DNA from: a virus
Length of the DNA: 35,993 nucleotides
Strand: one strand, 5' to 3'
IMG/VR virus record: IMGVR_UViG_3300025940_000017
Coordinates: 1-35,993 of that record
A program made the translations under genes and the position numbers. Each line of letters starts with the position of its first letter. The stretch's first letter is position 1. The notes below the pieces were generated by a model that saw only the letters and a program-made list of their open reading frames with translations, ran no database searches and had not been told where the DNA came from. Of the stretch, positions 23,893 to 35,993 are shown one piece after another.

Positions 23893-24224
23893 TGTCAGAT
23901 CAAGAATATCAGCCGGGGCACTACGTAGGAGCGGGGTTGACCAAGCCACCTAAGTCCAAGTCTCGTCCGGTCGACATGCTGGAGTGCAACAGCCTGTTGG
24001 CGGAAGCATGTGCCAAGGCACTTCGGCACTTCAAGGCGCTGGACGAGGCCAACGCAGCGATCCACTGCGCCGAGGTGCGGTACTCACCGATCACCTTCCG
24101 GCTGGCGGAAGCCTTGGACGCCCACGTCGAGGAGTTCTACGGTGGTGACGCGCTCGTCTACAAGGAGCGCAACGTCGTGATGCTGCACGCGGGCAAGTAC
24201 AAGGAAGACCCGGGGCGTGAGTAA
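23892..24224 (+). CDS. Hypothetical protein
   Basis: A 110-residue protein from ATG 23892 in a TGATG overlap with the previous stop; GTG 23889 would add one residue. It has a polar N-terminus and a helical body (NSLLAEACAKALRHFKALDEANAAIH) ending in YKERNVVMLHAGKYKEDPG. No known motif is visible. Its tight coupling to its neighbours supports a real gene within the replication region. Confidence 0.65.
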   Translation: MSDQEYQPGHYVGAGLTKPPKSKSRPVDMLECNSLLAEACAKALRHFKALDEANAAIHCAEVRYSPITFRLAEALDAHVEEFYGGDALVYKERNVVMLHAGKYKEDPGRE

Positions 24225-24657
24225 GGACCCGTTCTCGGTCTTCAACGATCTGAAGGACTTCCCGGGCAAGCGGGAGCCCGTGATGCGCGCCCAGCCCAAG
24301 CCTGTCGTCACAACATGGGATGCCCGCCCGCTGACCTACAAGGTGAACGGGATCCCCACCGAGTTCTTCCGGGTCAGCCACCTGGCTGCTGCCGTCAACA
24401 GATCGGTGCGGACCATCCGGCACTGGGAGAAGCACGGCATCATCCCACCGGCCACCTTCCGGGCACCGCTGCGGGGAGCGCGCTCCCAGGGCAGCAAGCA
24501 GGGTGACCGGCTCTACAGCCGGGCGCAGATCGAGGTGGTCATCAACGCTGCCAAGCGGACCGGCGTGCTGAAGGGCCGGGGCAATGCCCCGGACAAGGAC
24601 TTCACCCGGTTGATCATCACCGGGTGGTTACGGCTACAAGCGGAGGGCGTGAAGTGA
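24217..24657 (+). CDS. MerR-like helix-turn-helix DNA-binding protein
   Basis: A 146-residue protein from GTG 24217, preceded by AAGGAAG at 24201-24207. Residues 52-78 (RVSHLAAAVNRSVRTIRHWEKHG) are a MerR/excisionase-like helix-turn-helix, with IIPPATF after it as the usual wing start and GDRLYSRAQIEVVINAA as the following helix. Such proteins bind DNA as regulators or architectural factors. No integrase is present in the window, so excisionase is not favoured. It overlaps both neighbours by a few bases. Confidence 0.72.
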   Translation: MSKDPFSVFNDLKDFPGKREPVMRAQPKPVVTTWDARPLTYKVNGIPTEFFRVSHLAAAVNRSVRTIRHWEKHGIIPPATFRAPLRGARSQGSKQGDRLYSRAQIEVVINAAKRTGVLKGRGNAPDKDFTRLIITGWLRLQAEGVK

Positions 24658-29466: not shown

Positions 29467-30540
29467 GTGACGATCGACTCCTTGATCAAGAAGGTCAACA
29501 AGGCACACGGTGAGGGCACGCTGGTCCGAGGGTCGGACCTGAAGGACTTGGTGATCCCGCGGTGCACGACGGGCTCGCTGGCGCTGGACCTGATGCTCGG
29601 CGGTGGCTGGCCACTCAACTGCTGGAACGAGATCGTGGGTGAGCCGTCCAATGGCAAGAGCCTCATCGCGCTGAAGACCATCGCCGCCAATCAGGCCATC
29701 GATCCCCACTACGAGGTGCTGTGGGTCGCTGCCGAGGACTTCGTACACGAGTGGGCCGAGACGTGCGGTGTGGATCTCGACCGGGTGACTGTTTCCACAA
29801 CAAGGGTGATGGAGGAGGCCTTCACCATCGTCATCGATGCCTTGGACGATCGGGCAGTAGATGCTGTTGTCATTGACAGTCTCTCCGCACTGGTGCCCAG
29901 TGACGAGGACGAGAAGTCGATGGACGAGTGGTTGATCGGGCTCGGTGCTCGGATCACCAACAAGTTCATGCGCAAGTCGGCCTCGGCGCAGCGCCGCCAC
30001 CTCGATCGGGAGGACCGCAACTGCCTCGGCATCGTGATCTCCCAGTGGCGGGAGAAGGTCGGTGTGATGTTCGGGGACAGCCGCACCACGCCCTACGGCC
30101 GGGGCAAGGAGTTCCACTACATCACCCGGGTCGAGGCGCGGCGGGACGAGTGGATCAAGAGCGGCAAGGACGAGCGTGTTGGCATCACCATGAAGGCCCG
30201 GACCATCAAGAACAAGATGGCTCCTCCGCAGCGGGTTGCCACGGTGGACTTCTACTGGCAGGACGTGCCCGGGTTCCCAGCCGGTGAGTACGACCGGGTG
30301 AAGGAGATCATCAACATCGCTGTTGCTTACGACATCATCGAGCAGAGTGGCGGTTGGTACACCTTCGATGACCAGAAGTGGAACGGCAAGGACAAACTTG
30401 TTGCCAGCATCAGAGAGGAGTTGGACCTACAGGAGAAGATCGATATGACGGTTCGTGAAGTCGTCATCAACGGGCGCCCGCTCGGTGAGGTCTTGGAAGC
30501 CACCAGGCCCAAGACCGTGAGGAGGCGCCGGGGACGATGA
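29467..30540 (+). CDS. RecA/UvsX-like recombinase
   Basis: A 357-residue protein from GTG 29467, probably leaderless. RecA-core features are clear: TTGSLALDLMLGGGWP, P-loop G58-EPSNGK64-S65, Walker B VVID137SLSAL, and a later GIVISQWREKVGVMFGDSRTTPYG, which matches the loop and core-closing region of RecA/UvsX. The C-terminal part has GEYDRVKEIINIAVAYDIIEQSGGWYTF, a known conserved block of RecA C-terminal regions, and a basic tail. It should catalyse strand exchange for replication restart and recombination. It overlaps the next gene in an ATGA junction and is followed by nuclease and resolvase genes. Confidence 0.9.
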   Translation: MTIDSLIKKVNKAHGEGTLVRGSDLKDLVIPRCTTGSLALDLMLGGGWPLNCWNEIVGEPSNGKSLIALKTIAANQAIDPHYEVLWVAAEDFVHEWAETCGVDLDRVTVSTTRVMEEAFTIVIDALDDRAVDAVVIDSLSALVPSDEDEKSMDEWLIGLGARITNKFMRKSASAQRRHLDREDRNCLGIVISQWREKVGVMFGDSRTTPYGRGKEFHYITRVEARRDEWIKSGKDERVGITMKARTIKNKMAPPQRVATVDFYWQDVPGFPAGEYDRVKEIINIAVAYDIIEQSGGWYTFDDQKWNGKDKLVASIREELDLQEKIDMTVREVVINGRPLGEVLEATRPKTVRRRRGR

Positions 30541-30785
30541 GCCGTCGAGTCATTCGCTGTCGCCGTCAAGGCTGCAAGCAAGGGCTCGTACTAGTCTGTG
30601 TCTTCTGCTTACGGAAGTTCTGCAAGCACTGTATGTGGAACCATGATGTATGCCTCATGTGTAGGGAGCAACTGCGGGAACATGGCCGGTCAGAGAGACT
30701 CCAAACGCCAGGAGAGACGCCTGGCAGGCGTCCTGGATGGGACGCGCAACGCAGCCAGTGGAGCCTTGCCGTTCCGCAAGGCTGA
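30537..30785 (+). CDS. Cys-rich zinc-finger-like protein overlapping the resolvase gene
   Basis: An 82-residue ORF starting in an ATGA overlap with the recombinase. The first half has eight cysteines: C8, C13, C21-x2-C24, C29-x2-C32 and C39-x2-C42, with H36, giving a RING/B-box-like pattern for two zinc ions. After residue ~50 the sequence becomes low-complexity (Arg/Pro/Gly) and overlaps the resolvase gene by 104 bases in another frame. The N-terminal half looks real; the C-terminal half may be a by-product of the overlap, or the protein may be extended by frameshifting into the resolvase. Confidence 0.6.
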   Translation: MSRRVIRCRRQGCKQGLVLVCVFCLRKFCKHCMWNHDVCLMCREQLREHGRSERLQTPGETPGRRPGWDAQRSQWSLAVPQG

Positions 30786-30975
30786 TATCAGAAGCAAGCA
30801 CTACCTGGTCGAGGCCAAGATCACTGACAAGCGGTCGTACTCGATCAAGTTGAAGGACTGGGAGACCCTTCGGCGCCTGGCGTCGTTGGAAGGTCGGACA
30901 CCGATGTATGCAGTTCAACTTGGCAAGCGACGTCTGATCATTGTGGAGGAAGATGACTTTCCCTTCCCCGAGTAG
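30682..30975 (+). CDS. Holliday-junction-resolvase-like PD-(D/E)XK nuclease
   Basis: A 98-residue protein from ATG 30682. Its sequence follows the small archaeal-type/phage resolvase pattern: RDSKRQERRLAGVLDGTRN with the early Glu, a Gly/Ala-rich ASGALPFRKADIRS with the Asp, YLVEAKIT with the E-x-K pair, and SYSIKLKDWETL. The active site D/E-E-x-K is intact. It would cut branched DNA made by the RecA-like recombinase encoded upstream. The ribosome site is weak; coupling through the overlapping Cys-rich ORF is likely. Confidence 0.75.
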   Translation: MAGQRDSKRQERRLAGVLDGTRNAASGALPFRKADIRSKHYLVEAKITDKRSYSIKLKDWETLRRLASLEGRTPMYAVQLGKRRLIIVEEDDFPFPE

Positions 30976-30978
30976 GCC

Positions 30979-31263
30979 TTGGCGCGGCCGCGCACCGACC
31001 CTCCGCACGGCTTCGGCAGGTACCGGCACAAACGGTACCTGTGCCGCTGTGATATCTGTCGGGCGGGCAACGCCGAGTACATGCGCGAGTACCGCATCCG
31101 GGTCGGCGGCGGGATGGATCCGGCGCGCTTCTGCCCGGTCTGCCACCTCGTCTTCGACCGGCGGGGGCTGGGGAGGCACATGTCCATGCATAGGAAGAGA
31201 GAGGGCGATGCCACCGAAAGGCGTCTTGCTGAAGCCGCTACCCGAGCACGGGACCCACGCTAG
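30979..31263 (+). CDS. Zinc-finger protein, tandem paralogue 1
   Basis: A 94-residue protein read from TTG 30979; no better start keeps the conserved N-terminus, and its ribosome site is weak. Two metal-binding parts are seen: C22-x-C24-x2-C27 followed by NAEYMREYR, a pattern known from short phage and actinobacterial proteins, and a C2H2 finger C52-x2-C55...H67-x3-H71. The next gene has the same architecture with nearly identical spacing. Nucleic-acid binding is likely, target unknown. Its 3' end overlaps the second paralogue by 56 bases in another frame. Confidence 0.65.
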   Translation: MARPRTDPPHGFGRYRHKRYLCRCDICRAGNAEYMREYRIRVGGGMDPARFCPVCHLVFDRRGLGRHMSMHRKREGDATERRLAEAATRARDPR

Positions 31264-31492
31264 GTATATCCACCGGCTCTTCCCCTGTCGCTGTGCTGCA
31301 TGTACCAAGGCCAACACGGAGTACAACCGGGACTACCGGGCTCGGAAGCGGGCGATCAAGAACCCCAACGTGATCTGTGACATCTGTGGCCTCAGGATGG
31401 CGAGCCCTCTGGCCCTCGGCGGGCATAAGTCAGGGCACACCAAGCGGGGCAGCCAGAACGTGAAGCGGATCCGCAGGATGTCCAAGACATGA
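31208..31492 (+). CDS. Zinc-finger protein, tandem paralogue 2
   Basis: A 94-residue protein from ATG 31208, preceded by GAGAGAG. It repeats the layout of its neighbour: C27-x-C29-x2-C32 with NTEYNRDYR, then C57-x2-C60...H73-x3-H77, and a basic tail (TKRGSQNVKRIRRMSK). The distance between the two metal sites (30 residues) is the same in both, so gene duplication is the simplest reading. It overlaps the Cas4-like gene in an ATGA junction. Confidence 0.72.
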   Translation: MPPKGVLLKPLPEHGTHARYIHRLFPCRCAACTKANTEYNRDYRARKRAIKNPNVICDICGLRMASPLALGGHKSGHTKRGSQNVKRIRRMSKT

Positions 31493-32547
31493 CCACGATC
31501 AAGCGCCAGCGCATGACGGCGTCCTCCTTGGACCGGTTCAAGAAGGCTGTAGTCGGAAACGACACCTACGTCCTGGGTGACATCCAGGCCCACGTCATGC
31601 AGCGCCTCTCCGAGAGCGACCTGAACCGTCGTTCGGAGGTGCTGCATCCCAGCGACATGTCGAAGCCGGAATGGTGCTATCGACATGACTACTACCGGAT
31701 CATCGGTGTTGAGCCAACAGACAAGGTGGCCAACCCGTCGTTCTTCATGAAGAACATCTTCGAGGAGGGCCACGAGATCCACCGGAAGTGGCAGCGCTGG
31801 CTGTGGGAGATGGGCTACCTGTGGGGTGTCTTCGAGTGCCGTGACTGTTATCACAGGTGGTGGGATCTCTCACCGCGCAGGTGCATGGCGTGCGGGAAGG
31901 AGCGCCTGCGCTACCAGGAGGTGCCCATGGAGACCCGCCTGGTGGCCGGGCACTCTGATGGTGGTATCATCAAGCCGGGCGCGGTTCCCTCGTTGCTGGA
32001 GGTCAAGAGCGTCAGCCTTGGTACGCTCCGGTTCGAGGCGCCCAGCCTGTACGAGTTGTATCAACAGGGTGTCGGGATCGACAAGATCTGGTGGCAGATC
32101 CAGCGGCCGTTCCCCTCACACCTCCGGCAGGGACTGATCTACCTGTGGTTGGCCAACGAGGGTGCCCTGAGCAACATCTTGCTGGAAGTGCTACCGGAAC
32201 CACCGAAGCAGATCGTGTTCATCTACGAGTGGAAGCCCACGCAGTCGGTGAAGGAGTTCGTCGTCAAGTACACGCCGCGTCCGCTGACCCGGGTGCTGAA
32301 GGGCGTGTCTCTGGTGGGTGAGGCCATCGACCGGGGCAAGCCGCCGCCCCGGCCGGACTGGGCAGAGGACGAGGACAGCCCGGTGTGTCGGAGTTGTCCC
32401 TACCGCTCGGTCTGCTACCATCTTTCCGTACCCTATGACGCCAACAGTCCGGCGCAAGCGCCAACACTCCAGGTCCAGCGGTCCAAGTCGGGTGTACGCA
32501 GGCGTGCCCTTGCCCGACCGCCCTGGGCGAGTTCCGCATCTCCCTGA
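31489..32547 (+). CDS. Cas4/RecB-like PD-(D/E)XK exonuclease with Fe-S cysteines and zinc ribbon
   Basis: A 352-residue protein from ATG 31489 (ATGA). The nuclease core is GHSD157GG, LLE171-V-K173 and RQGLIYLWL. A four-cysteine iron-sulfur set as in Cas4 and AddB is visible: C63 near the N-terminus and C300-x2-C303-x5-C309 near the C-terminus. An inserted zinc ribbon, C117-x2-C120 and C132-x2-C135, lies between C63 and the catalytic Asp. Phage proteins of this type probably resect DNA ends for recombination. There are no cas1/cas2 genes or CRISPR arrays, so a CRISPR role is not suggested. The last ~37 codons overlap the next gene. Confidence 0.87.
   Translation: MTTIKRQRMTASSLDRFKKAVVGNDTYVLGDIQAHVMQRLSESDLNRRSEVLHPSDMSKPEWCYRHDYYRIIGVEPTDKVANPSFFMKNIFEEGHEIHRKWQRWLWEMGYLWGVFECRDCYHRWWDLSPRRCMACGKERLRYQEVPMETRLVAGHSDGGIIKPGAVPSLLEVKSVSLGTLRFEAPSLYELYQQGVGIDKIWWQIQRPFPSHLRQGLIYLWLANEGALSNILLEVLPEPPKQIVFIYEWKPTQSVKEFVVKYTPRPLTRVLKGVSLVGEAIDRGKPPPRPDWAEDEDSPVCRSCPYRSVCYHLSVPYDANSPAQAPTLQVQRSKSGVRRRALARPPWASSASP
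32394..32421 (+). promoter_or_regulatory. Internal promoter within the Cas4-like gene
   Basis: TTGTCC at 32394-32399, a 16-base spacer and TACCAT at 32416-32421. It lies 13 bases before ATG 32435, which has no ribosome site. Confidence 0.4.
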
Positions 32548-32935: not shown

Positions 32936-33186
32936 CCACGTGTGTGCTCTGTGACGAGGAACTGACCGTCTCGGTCTCGATCCTCCAGCCGATTCATCGG
33001 GAGTGCGCCATGCGTGCTGGGCTGGGTGGGATCGGGCACCACATCGACCATGAGTACTTCTGTAAGCAGAAGGGCGACCCGGATGCTGGGCTCCCGTACC
33101 GGCTGTCGGCGCTGCTGGTTGCTACTTACGTCAGGTACGTCGGTCCCGAGAAGGCGGCGCAGTCAGCGGTCAATGTCAATGACTAA
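32932..33186 (+). CDS. Small Cys/His protein, possible zinc binder
   Basis: An 84-residue protein from ATG 32932 (ATGA overlap) with AGGTGG just before it. C4-x2-C7 and H22-x2-C25 form a possible zinc site, followed by GGIGHHIDHEYFC and GDPDAGLPYRLSALLV. This pattern recurs in actinobacterial phage proteins of unknown role. It overlaps the next nuclease gene. Confidence 0.65.
   Translation: MTTCVLCDEELTVSVSILQPIHRECAMRAGLGGIGHHIDHEYFCKQKGDPDAGLPYRLSALLVATYVRYVGPEKAAQSAVNVND
33169..33183 (+). repeat. GTCAATGTCAATGAC repeat, copy 3
   Basis: Exact 15-base match to 16791-16805. It overlaps the start codon region of the nuclease gene at 33179. Confidence 0.5.
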
Positions 33187-33568
33187 CCGGCCCAAGCAGA
33201 CGGGGACTGCCCACGAGACGGCCATCGTCAACTGGTTCCGTGAGCAGGGCTGGGAAGAGGCCGACCGGCTCACCATGAAGGGAGCGGCTGACCGCGGTGA
33301 CGTGGGCCTGGGTTTCCATGTGCCGGTGGTGATCGAGGCCAAGGGCGTGAAGCGCTCCACCCAGCGGGTCGACATGTCGGGGTTCATGCGGGAGTTGGAA
33401 TCGGAAATCGACAATGCCAAAGCCGAGACAGGTGTTGTCATCATCAAGAAGAGCGGTACTACCGATGTCGGCAAGTACTATGCTCTGCTCCCTGTGTGGC
33501 GCTACGAGCAGTTGATCGCAGCGCTGTACCCAAAGCGTCGGGTGATCCGGCGCAGGAGGATGACGTGA
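33179..33568 (+). CDS. PD-(D/E)XK endonuclease, resolvase-like
   Basis: A 129-residue protein from ATG 33179 (ATG 33173 adds two residues). The fold is recognisable from TGTAHETAIVNWFREQG with the early Glu, then GAADRGDVGL with the Asp, VVIEAKGVKR with E-x-K, and the helix MRELESEIDNAKAETGVVI. This matches Holliday-junction-resolvase and VSR-like nucleases. It is the third nuclease of this superfamily within 2.9 kb. Division of labour with the enzyme at 30682 is unclear. It ends in a very basic tail (KRRVIRRRRM). Confidence 0.75.
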   Translation: MTNRPKQTGTAHETAIVNWFREQGWEEADRLTMKGAADRGDVGLGFHVPVVIEAKGVKRSTQRVDMSGFMRELESEIDNAKAETGVVIIKKSGTTDVGKYYALLPVWRYEQLIAALYPKRRVIRRRRMT

Positions 33569-33569
33569 G

Positions 33570-33734
33570 ATGCCAGCGGTGAAGTTGAAGGACATGGAGT
33601 GCCCGCGGTGCCAGAAGCAGTACGAGCGTCTCCCGCTTCGAGACGGTGACTTCCCCGGTCATCGCTGCCCTGATGGTGTCATCACCACGCTGGTTGTGAC
33701 GGACACACCACCTCTGCTGAGGTCAGTGGGCTAG
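33570..33734 (+). CDS. Tiny zinc-finger-like protein
   Basis: A 54-residue ORF: ATG 33570 to TAG 33732-33734. AGGAGG at 33554-33559 is a good ribosome site about 10 bases upstream. C11-x2-C14 and H31-x-C33 suggest a zinc site (MECPRCQKQYE, FPGHRCPDG). It begins one base after the nuclease stop, so it is probably co-translated. Function unknown. Confidence 0.6.
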   Translation: MPAVKLKDMECPRCQKQYERLPLRDGDFPGHRCPDGVITTLVVTDTPPLLRSVG

Positions 33735-33766
33735 TCTCCGTCCCGTCGTTCGCACAGGAGACGGGG

Positions 33767-34096
33767 ATGGTTCACGCTGCCGGAGCAACTCATGTGGTGG
33801 ATCCGAGAACCATGACCTTCTTCAACGAGGAAGAGTCACTGCTGAAGGTCGCTGCGGCCAGCCCGCCCCAGGCCATCGCCACGGCTCTCGTGCGTTCCAT
33901 CCAGGAAGGGAAGCAGCCGGTGATGCGCGCCATCGGGCACGGCGCTGTCGGGCAGGCCGTGAAAGCCCAGATCCTGGCTCGTGGTCTCGCAGCGCCCATC
34001 GGTCTCGATCTGCTGTTCATGCCAGCATTCGACAGTGTGACCAATGAGCAGGGCGAGGAGTTGTCGGCCATCATCTGGCGCACGTTCTGGCGGTAG
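33767..34096 (+). CDS. spoVS: SpoVS-like protein (Alba-like fold)
   Basis: A 109-residue protein from ATG 33767 with AGGAG six bases upstream. From residue ~24 it matches the stage V sporulation protein S family across its full length: LLKVAAASPPQAIATALV, MRAIGHGAVGQAVKAQILARG, then PIGLDLLFMPAF and EELSAIIWRTF. SpoVS has an Alba-like nucleic-acid-binding fold and, in Bacillus, affects sporulation and septation. A phage copy may bind DNA or RNA or alter host division or sporulation. It has an added ~23-residue N-terminus. It sits between the recombination genes and a second virion gene, three bases before the latter's ATG. Confidence 0.88.
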   Translation: MVHAAGATHVVDPRTMTFFNEEESLLKVAAASPPQAIATALVRSIQEGKQPVMRAIGHGAVGQAVKAQILARGLAAPIGLDLLFMPAFDSVTNEQGEELSAIIWRTFWR

Positions 34097-34098
34097 TG

Positions 34099-35993
34099 AT
34101 GCGCACCTATGACGGCATGTACAAGGCGCTCTGCCTCAGTGTGGAGCCCACCAGGGGCATGATCAAGGCCCAGGTGCCCCAGGTCTTCAGTGATGTTGTC
34201 ATCATCATTCGCAACTCGGCGGGCTCCATGCCGTTCGCCGGAGCCCGCGGCTGGGTCGGCTTCGAGAACGGTCAGGCCGAGCGGCCGGTGTGGGTCGGTA
34301 CCGACACGCTGGTTGGCGAGTCGGACCCCAGTGGCAGCGGGGGAGGCGGTGGTGACGGCAGCGGTGGCTGGGAGATCGTGGAGACGTCCTCGCTGCTGCC
34401 GTCCTCTCCAGCCATCGGTGCTAGGTACTTTGTCAACGACATCAACAACGTCTTGGAGTGGTCGGGCTCGGCCTGGACGAACCTGGCTGACACCGGCCTT
34501 GGCATCGTGGAGGCGAACACTCTGCCTGCTGCGCTGCCGCCGGGCACGCTCTTCTTCGACATGGACGAGGTCGTCCCGGACCCCACGCCCGGCCCTCCGG
34601 GAGCACCAGGTGCACCTGGAGCCACAGGAGCCACGGGTCCGCCCGGTCCTCCTGGCATCCCTGGTGCAGGTGTTCTCTACGGCACCTGGAGTTGGCTTTC
34701 GGCAGCGTCCACCCCACCGTTGAGCACGAACAGAGTTGCGCTCAACACGGATGCTCCCAGTGCAGCAACGGCTGTGTACATCCACAAGAACGATGAGGCG
34801 ACCACGGACTTCACTGCTGTGATCAACACGCTTGTCATCAATGACGAGGTGTTCATTCAGCAGTTTGATGACTACAACAACAGAGTCACCTACAAGGTGA
34901 CTGCTGTGCCGACACTCGCCTCGAACACCTTCACCATCCCGGTGGCACTGGTCGCCGGATCGATCAGCGGTGTGGAGCCGAACAATGGCAAGGACGTCCT
35001 CGTCGCCTTCCGTCGTGCAGCCTCTGGTGGCGGTGGAGGCGGTGGCATCCTCGGCTTCCATCAGCAGACGAGTGACTACACCGTCGCCCTGGCTGATGTT
35101 GACTACGTGGTCCAGATGAATGTTGCTGTCAGCAATGTGGCCACGATCCCGCCCGTGGCTTCGGTCGCTTGGGTGGCCAATCAGCAGATCCACTTCCACA
35201 ACATGGGAGTTGGGCAGACGCGCATCGCAGGAGGTGCTGGCGTTACCGTCCTGGCCACACCGGGCAAGCGGCTGCGGGCACAGAACAGCATGGCCACGGC
35301 GATCTGCACGGCTACTCCTAACACCTGGATCCTCACCGGTGATCTGACAGCAGATGCTCCGGTCGCAACGGTGGCTCCCACGATCACGCTCGGGATCACC
35401 ACGTGGCTCTACCCGCCGCTCACGGCCTCGACGGGTACCTGGCCCGGTGCTCCGACGTTCACCTACCAGTGGCAGGAGCGGGCGTCCGGTACGTCAGGAG
35501 CCTGGTCCAACTCAACTGGTTCCGGCTACAACACAGCCACTTACCTGGGCACGGCGGGCAGCAAGGCCTACCGCTGCCAGGTGACGGCCACCGATTCCAG
35601 CGGTTCGGGAGTTGCCTACAGCGAGATCACCGAGGTGCTTGGAGCCGGGCTCAGCCAGTCCCTGAGCGCTCTGTCGACGCTGGCCCACTGGACGCTCTGC
35701 GGTGCCGAGGGAGGACGGGCAGGCACCGATCTGGTCACCGTCCCTGGCAAGGGTGAGAAGCGGACCTTCGACTGGGCGCACACCCTGGCCGAGACCTGTA
35801 CCCTCAACGTGGGCACCGCTGGCTCACAGGGTGTTGCCGGAACCAACGGTGGTGGTGCCGCAGGCACGACCGGGACTCCTACCTCGGACCCGGGTGGCGG
35901 TGGCGGTGCCTGTGATCTGCGTCTCGGAGGCACAGCGCTCGCCAATCGCAAGGGCACCGCAGGCGGCGGTGGCGGTGCTGGCATGAACAACGG
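34099..35993 (+). CDS. Spike/fibre protein: gp5-like OB-fold, collagen-like repeats, glycine-rich region (3' end outside window)
   Basis: An open frame from ATG 34099 to the right edge without stop, at least 631 residues. Residues 1-~70 (YDGMYKALCLSVEP, MIKAQVPQVFSDV, ARGWVGFENGQAERPVWVG) match the OB-fold of gp5/gpV-type baseplate spikes. A Gly/Ser linker follows, then a YFVND...LEWSGSAWT segment, a short collagen-like GxxGxxG run near residues 170-195, beta-rich repeats, an Ig-like region (FTYQWQER, YRCQVTATDSSGSG) and a glycine-rich end resembling the domains of the 11030 fibre (KRTFDWAHTLAETCTLNVG, then GGGGG runs). It is probably a spike or fibre at the tail tip, though over 20 kb from the other baseplate genes. 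The SpoVS stop is three bases upstream. Confidence 0.75.
   Translation, partial: MRTYDGMYKALCLSVEPTRGMIKAQVPQVFSDVVIIIRNSAGSMPFAGARGWVGFENGQAERPVWVGTDTLVGESDPSGSGGGGGDGSGGWEIVETSSLLPSSPAIGARYFVNDINNVLEWSGSAWTNLADTGLGIVEANTLPAALPPGTLFFDMDEVVPDPTPGPPGAPGAPGATGATGPPGPPGIPGAGVLYGTWSWLSAASTPPLSTNRVALNTDAPSAATAVYIHKNDEATTDFTAVINTLVINDEVFIQQFDDYNNRVTYKVTAVPTLASNTFTIPVALVAGSISGVEPNNGKDVLVAFRRAASGGGGGGGILGFHQQTSDYTVALADVDYVVQMNVAVSNVATIPPVASVAWVANQQIHFHNMGVGQTRIAGGAGVTVLATPGKRLRAQNSMATAICTATPNTWILTGDLTADAPVATVAPTITLGITTWLYPPLTASTGTWPGAPTFTYQWQERASGTSGAWSNSTGSGYNTATYLGTAGSKAYRCQVTATDSSGSGVAYSEITEVLGAGLSQSLSALSTLAHWTLCGAEGGRAGTDLVTVPGKGEKRTFDWAHTLAETCTLNVGTAGSQGVAGTNGGGAAGTTGTPTSDPGGGGGACDLRLGGTALANRKGTAGGGGGAGMNN

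Follow-up and report, generated by a model that had tools for sequence, protein, structure and literature searches.

A SpoVS-family gene is a core gene of a large environmental phage lineage and follows a leader hairpin with co-evolving arms

We found that spoVS is a core gene of a large environmental phage lineage and not sporadic sporulation cargo, and that across this lineage it follows an RNA hairpin whose arms co-evolve. The gene was studied in a virus record from IMG/VR, whose entire 35,993 bases we call the window. With a probability of roughly 55%, we favor the reading that this core phage gene encodes a protein of SpoVS/Alba fold, likely to bind nucleic acid, that handles the phage genome or mRNA around the passage from recombination to virion assembly. 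The protein would bind DNA or RNA, acting on transcripts or on the products of recombination. Its role probably lies in the phage's own cycle and not in host spore formation, because the gene is standard in the lineage, lies beside recombination genes, and sits behind a hairpin that masks the start. Several points count against our reading: shared ancestry by itself could account for the conserved gene order, the protein has no marked basic character, and the hairpin is not significant in the window alone and is missing in L003.

The ORF lies at 33767-34096 on the plus strand and encodes 109 amino acids from an ATG, with the Shine-Dalgarno sequence AGGAG (33756-33760) six bases ahead; gene calls came from a simple in-house ORF scorer and not from a standard gene finder. 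The initial annotation had described a full match to the SpoVS family, and profile searches confirmed it. Pfam PF04232 matches at 66.9 bits against a cut-off of 24 (E 1.4e-18), with residues 25-102 aligned to profile positions 2-78 of 83. The ORF also matches phrog_35646, labeled 'sporulation protein' (E 1e-13), and phmmer against the PDB retrieves Thermus thermophilus SpoVS (2eh1, E 2.8e-9). PADLOC gave no defence match for the window SpoVS; the exonuclease alone gave weak Cas4 matches. An identical protein is encoded by a second contig, L002, and one that is 69% identical by L003, both among similar neighbors. The N-terminal addition of about 23 residues that had been called unusual is indeed present and common to the window and L003 proteins. 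L003 has no ATG, GTG, or TTG within the last ~20 codons ahead of the SpoVS domain; in the window, an in-frame ATG at 33812 would give a shorter tail but has, by eye, a weaker Shine-Dalgarno sequence. Most other phage relatives carry a shorter acidic tail. The window protein is not notably basic, its acidic and basic residues being about equal in number by eye.

The fold that had been proposed, SpoVS with its Alba-like architecture, was borne out by structure prediction, the result that could have spoken against it. AlphaFold2 modeling of the single chain with 43 aligned sequences gave a mean pLDDT of 83.8 and the order b1-a1-b2-a2-b3-b4. The domain spans residues 23-109, and the stretch 1-22 is mostly disordered in the model (pLDDT below 50 at residues 1-12 and 14-22). 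Compared with the PDB, the model matches the SpoVS entries 2ek0, 2eh1, and 9a7h at Z 15.4-16.2 and Alba entries at Z ~10-11, with 10-21% identity in those rows. The predicted structure therefore supports assignment of the window protein to the SpoVS fold and to the b1-a1-b2-a2-b3-b4 fold of the Alba superfamily. The Alba link rests on fold, because a sequence-profile search of the PDB returned no Alba match and SpoVS 2eh1 as its sole significant entry. The accessible part of PMC11621453 describes SpoVS as an Alba superfamily member and Alba as binding both DNA and RNA.

How constant is spoVS in this lineage? We sampled it through two neighbors of the gene, the upstream exonuclease and a downstream family, fam1, taking the nearest 80 loci for each. 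SpoVS was present in all 50 exonuclease-fetched loci with at least 6.5 kb downstream and in all 77 fam1-fetched loci with at least 6.5 kb upstream. All 127 loci with sufficient flank thus carry it (33 of 160 were too short and were dropped). They form a related and partly redundant sample, because each marker was a neighbor of SpoVS and each scan yields its nearest 80 loci. At 90% identity, the 68 and 78 SpoVS proteins sampled reduce to 30 and 36 types, and some of these contigs overlap our first locus set, in which 89 loci form 32 clusters by DNA similarity, 29 of them on the phage-only side of the tree. IMG/VR holds at least 555 stretches that encode relatives, among 600 pattern matches listed. 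SpoVS matches occur in 10 of 50,697 public phage records, comprising six Streptomyces phages, two Lysinibacillus phages, one Stenotrophomonas phage, and one gut scaffold.

The tree places the window in a phage-only group. It contains 108 rows after removal of near-duplicates, 48 phage and 60 bacterial, and has few alignment columns and long branches. One side holds 45 phage rows including the window (SH-aLRT 90); the other holds all 60 bacterial rows and three phage rows (L005, L006, and L009). Among the three is Lysinibacillus phage LysYB1, whose SpoVS pairs with that of a Lysinibacillus. L009 (MT836246.1), a 'Bacteriophage sp.' record, may be bacterial, as its SpoVS groups with Bacillota; by eye, the gene ahead of it resembles YmdB. 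The initial annotation had looked to phylogeny for a bacterial donor, and none was nearby: no bacterial row falls near the window SpoVS among rows drawn from the best 80 of 571 matches, nearly all Bacillota. The safe reading of this comparison is that the window gene was not acquired recently from any of the bacteria sampled. An actinobacterial host for the window phage is plausible, because 6 of the 10 public matches are Streptomyces phages and many relatives carry WhiB, an actinobacterial protein.

A predicted RNA hairpin at 33738-33770 on the plus strand covers most of the Shine-Dalgarno sequence and the start codon. Compared with shuffles, the window hairpin is not significant on its own (z -0.65); the signal is family-wide. 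We defined leaders as the 58 bases ending with the start codon, with one leader per cluster in the first set and same-locus leaders with an upstream gap of at least 30 as its controls. Mean fold z in this set was -1.29 (n=29) compared with -0.40 in 103 controls (p 2e-4), and the weaker result for Shine-Dalgarno pairing had p 0.008, based on 27 of 29 leaders because in two no Shine-Dalgarno sequence was recognised. The difference recurred in a held-out set of 44 new leaders unlike the first, with a mean fold z of -1.95 compared with -0.29 in 189 controls (p 1.8e-8). Here the Shine-Dalgarno sequence was paired at 0.81 (n=43) compared with 0.60 in controls (p 1.7e-7). These comparisons carry a small bias, as the spoVS start was the one with the best Shine-Dalgarno sequence and the control start the first ATG that has one. 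Bacterial spoVS leaders gave no hairpin signal (z -0.21, n=39; Shine-Dalgarno pairing 0.47, n=26), with rough starts, since 13 of the 39 lack a Shine-Dalgarno sequence by the rule used.

The two arms of the hairpin co-evolve across the phage lineage, because pairing with a leader's own 3' half exceeds that with a swapped half by 4.03 kcal/mol (n=70), compared with only 0.07 to 0.84 kcal/mol in control leaders over five draws. Controls from the same loci, usable in 70 of 73, were added because an uncontrolled first run could reflect base composition. Consensus folding on MAFFT alignments had given no pairs, because the stem sequences differ too much, and the arm swap was used instead. The window hairpin does better than 71 of 72 arm swaps, a comparison in which its high G+C favors it, and the L003 leader has no hairpin (z +0.8). 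At the level of the lineage, these leaders carry an RNA structure that masks the ribosome-binding site.

We considered whether this hairpin could be an mRNA-end stabiliser or a by-product of a transcription-unit border, unrelated to what SpoVS does. This is a serious contender, which we place somewhat below even odds. The feature is not unique to spoVS, as whiB leaders are structured too (mean z -2.13, n=15), an observation that we treat as a lead because its signal falls partly within the end of the coding region ahead. Moreover, no loop sequence is conserved across all leader groups by eye. However, stability alone needs no masking of the Shine-Dalgarno sequence, which exceeds that in controls, and the hairpin lacks terminator character. 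A terminator was rejected as its identity, since a T-run follows the stem in 1 of 73 leaders. Sites resembling terminators precede spoVS in 15 of 73 cases, little more often than they occur in control stretches (32 of 210). A scan of window positions 33300-34300 matched no sigma-70 promoter or terminator, and terminator scans gave two terminator-like matches in L004 and none in L212. Across the window and six loci, 132,156 bases in all, no known RNA family scored at its gathering threshold. Of 53 spoVS genes, 17 have a promoter-like CATA[AC]T 25-65 bases ahead of them, compared with 9 of 986 other genes; the promoter scan of 33300-34300 gave no such match for the window.

Under the reading we favor, in which SpoVS handles phage nucleic acid, the protein, encoded where the recombination and virion modules meet, would be made under translational control, with the hairpin delaying or limiting its synthesis. 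In the simplest version, SpoVS would repress its own mRNA once abundant. Autogenous control through structures at ribosome sites is familiar from nucleic-acid-binding phage proteins such as T4 gp32 and RegA and MS2 coat. A more specific proposal is that SpoVS is an RNA-binding switch in actinophages. It would bind the hairpin over its own ribosome-binding site, and perhaps the one on whiB mRNA, and the resulting small post-transcriptional circuit would set when recombination gives way to virion assembly. We regard this as tentative and rather unlikely as a whole; no hairpin sequence common to whiB and spoVS leaders was seen by eye. If true, it would provide the first natural ligand for the SpoVS family. 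The hairpin is in any case a cheap and concrete handle on the family's molecular role, as SpoVS either binds its own leader or does not.

Recombination genes lie beside spoVS. Upstream in the window, all on the plus strand, lie a RecA/UvsX-like recombinase (29467-30540, profile matches), an Hjc-like Holliday junction resolvase (30598-30975; phrog_2002, E 3.9e-15, with Pfam Hjc below cut-off), and a Cas4/RecB-like exonuclease (31489-32547, profile matches to PDDEXK_1). These are followed by a resolvase-slot nuclease (33179-33568) that matches phrog_244, 'RusA-like Holliday junction resolvase' (E 2.6e-19), and belongs to the same family as an L045 gene matching Pfam PDDEXK_15. A 54-residue ORF (33570-33734) with two CxxC-like pairs, zinc-ribbon-like by eye, matches phrog_14974 (E 0.004), to which no function is assigned there. 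Environmental members keep, with little change, the order RecA/UvsX, Hjc-like, often WhiB, Cas4-like exonuclease, resolvase, small genes, SpoVS, and virion-type genes. In 15 of 32 clusters (for example L031, 2615-2944, and L019, 3281-3601), WhiB (PF02467) is encoded between the Hjc-like gene and the exonuclease gene, and in the window small Cys-rich ORFs (30979-31492) occupy this position by eye.

On the other side, a baseplate/tail-type protein (34096-35991, plus strand) overlaps the SpoVS stop by one base and runs off the window. It had been called a spike gene, which is a plausible label because of a borderline baseplate-injector OB-domain match (24.5 bits, cut-off 23.8). Its family, fam20, follows SpoVS in 6 of 32 clusters, and the protein has collagen-like Gly-X-Y repeats and a glycine-rich stretch. 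Other genes also recur downstream of SpoVS. In 27 of 32 clusters there is fam1 (for example L055, 8851-9390, and L002, 14731-15225), a small protein with the conserved core YPDGYLGT...RGVHKG and no Pfam or PHROG match. Calcineurin-like phosphoesterase genes (fam14 and fam16) come two to four genes beyond SpoVS in 12 of 32 clusters (for example L055, 7805-8827, and L083, 6998-8224). In Bacillus, spoVS adjoins the phosphodiesterase gene ymdB, and PDB 9a7h models YunD with SpoVS. An Hsp20/alpha-crystallin gene (fam19) lies two genes after SpoVS in 4 of 32 clusters (for example L055, 6807-7307). Elsewhere in the window, 24217-24657 gives a MerR-like helix-turn-helix match (MerR_1, 25.6 bits, cut-off 21.6), and no integrase family was found among the subset of window proteins scanned.

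The resolvase slot swaps between unrelated families while SpoVS stays. In all 29 first-set clusters on the phage-only side, a Holliday-junction-resolvase-type nuclease is encoded one to six genes ahead of SpoVS (20 RuvC-like, 6 PD-(D/E)XK, and 3 RusA). One is upstream in all 127 flanked loci as well, 126 by HMM, the nearest being RuvC-like in 70, PD-(D/E)XK in 44, endonuclease VII in 11, RusA in 1, and another Holliday junction resolvase family in L173. Eleven loci that apparently lacked a resolvase proved to carry endonuclease VII or another resolvase. This pattern agrees with a connection to the closing stage of recombination, but much of it is explained by shared ancestry of the block. Could SpoVS then be a Holliday junction accessory that binds branched or duplex DNA and helps the neighboring resolvase complete recombination before packaging? 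Its Alba-type fold and the presence of a resolvase, of several unrelated families, in every locus would suit such a role. Nevertheless, we consider it unlikely: between spoVS and the resolvase lies the masking hairpin, joined in some members of the lineage by a promoter-like motif, the resolvase is not always a direct neighbor, and the host-like phage copies L005, L006, and L009 have no resolvase neighbor.

That phage SpoVS is instead a host-takeover or sporulation auxiliary gene altering host division or spore formation is quite improbable: it is homologous to a sporulation protein, the Streptomyces hosts of the isolates sporulate, and many relatives carry WhiB, but the sporadic presence and close bacterial donor expected of such a gene were seen neither in the sampled loci (127 of 127 carry it) nor in the tree, whose bacterial rows are nearly all Bacillota, and spoVS lies within a recombination block. 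The earlier suggestion that it alters host development or division is therefore not supported. Its companion suggestion, a possible role in organising phage DNA, agrees better with our results, and the leader hairpin is as much a pointer to RNA. Viral spoVS is treated as a sporulation-related auxiliary gene in the accessible parts of PMC6172770 and PMC8940887, a view repeated in that of PMC9765229, and is absent from the gene listing in the accessible part of PMC10294663. Viral spoVS has served as evidence that environmental viruses steer host sporulation; should it prove to be a core phage gene linked with recombination and virion genes, this reading needs revision. Phage spoVS itself is already known; its core status, resolvase linkage, and leader hairpin were not found in the open-licence PMC papers searched by title and abstract start.

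How does the phage protein compare with known systems? Bacterial SpoVS (PF04232; 2eh1/2ek0) has the same full-length domain and fold (Z 15-16), and G57, G59, Q63, K66, and R72 are among the core residues in common. The phage protein differs in its longer N-tail and the sequence of its C-terminal strand, and phage copies differ in their phage-only tree group, their gene neighbors, and a leader hairpin that bacterial copies lack. The archaeal Alba proteins, which bind DNA and RNA, are alike in fold (Z ~10-11) and differ in sequence (10-21% identity in those rows); the phage protein may bind nucleic acid as well. Finally, the viral spoVS 'auxiliary metabolic genes' of PMC6172770 and PMC8940887, as described in the accessible text, and phrog_35646 represent the same protein family in environmental phages. 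Those papers present viral spoVS as sporulation cargo, whereas in our sample the gene is core and part of a recombination/virion block; their viruses may or may not belong to this lineage.
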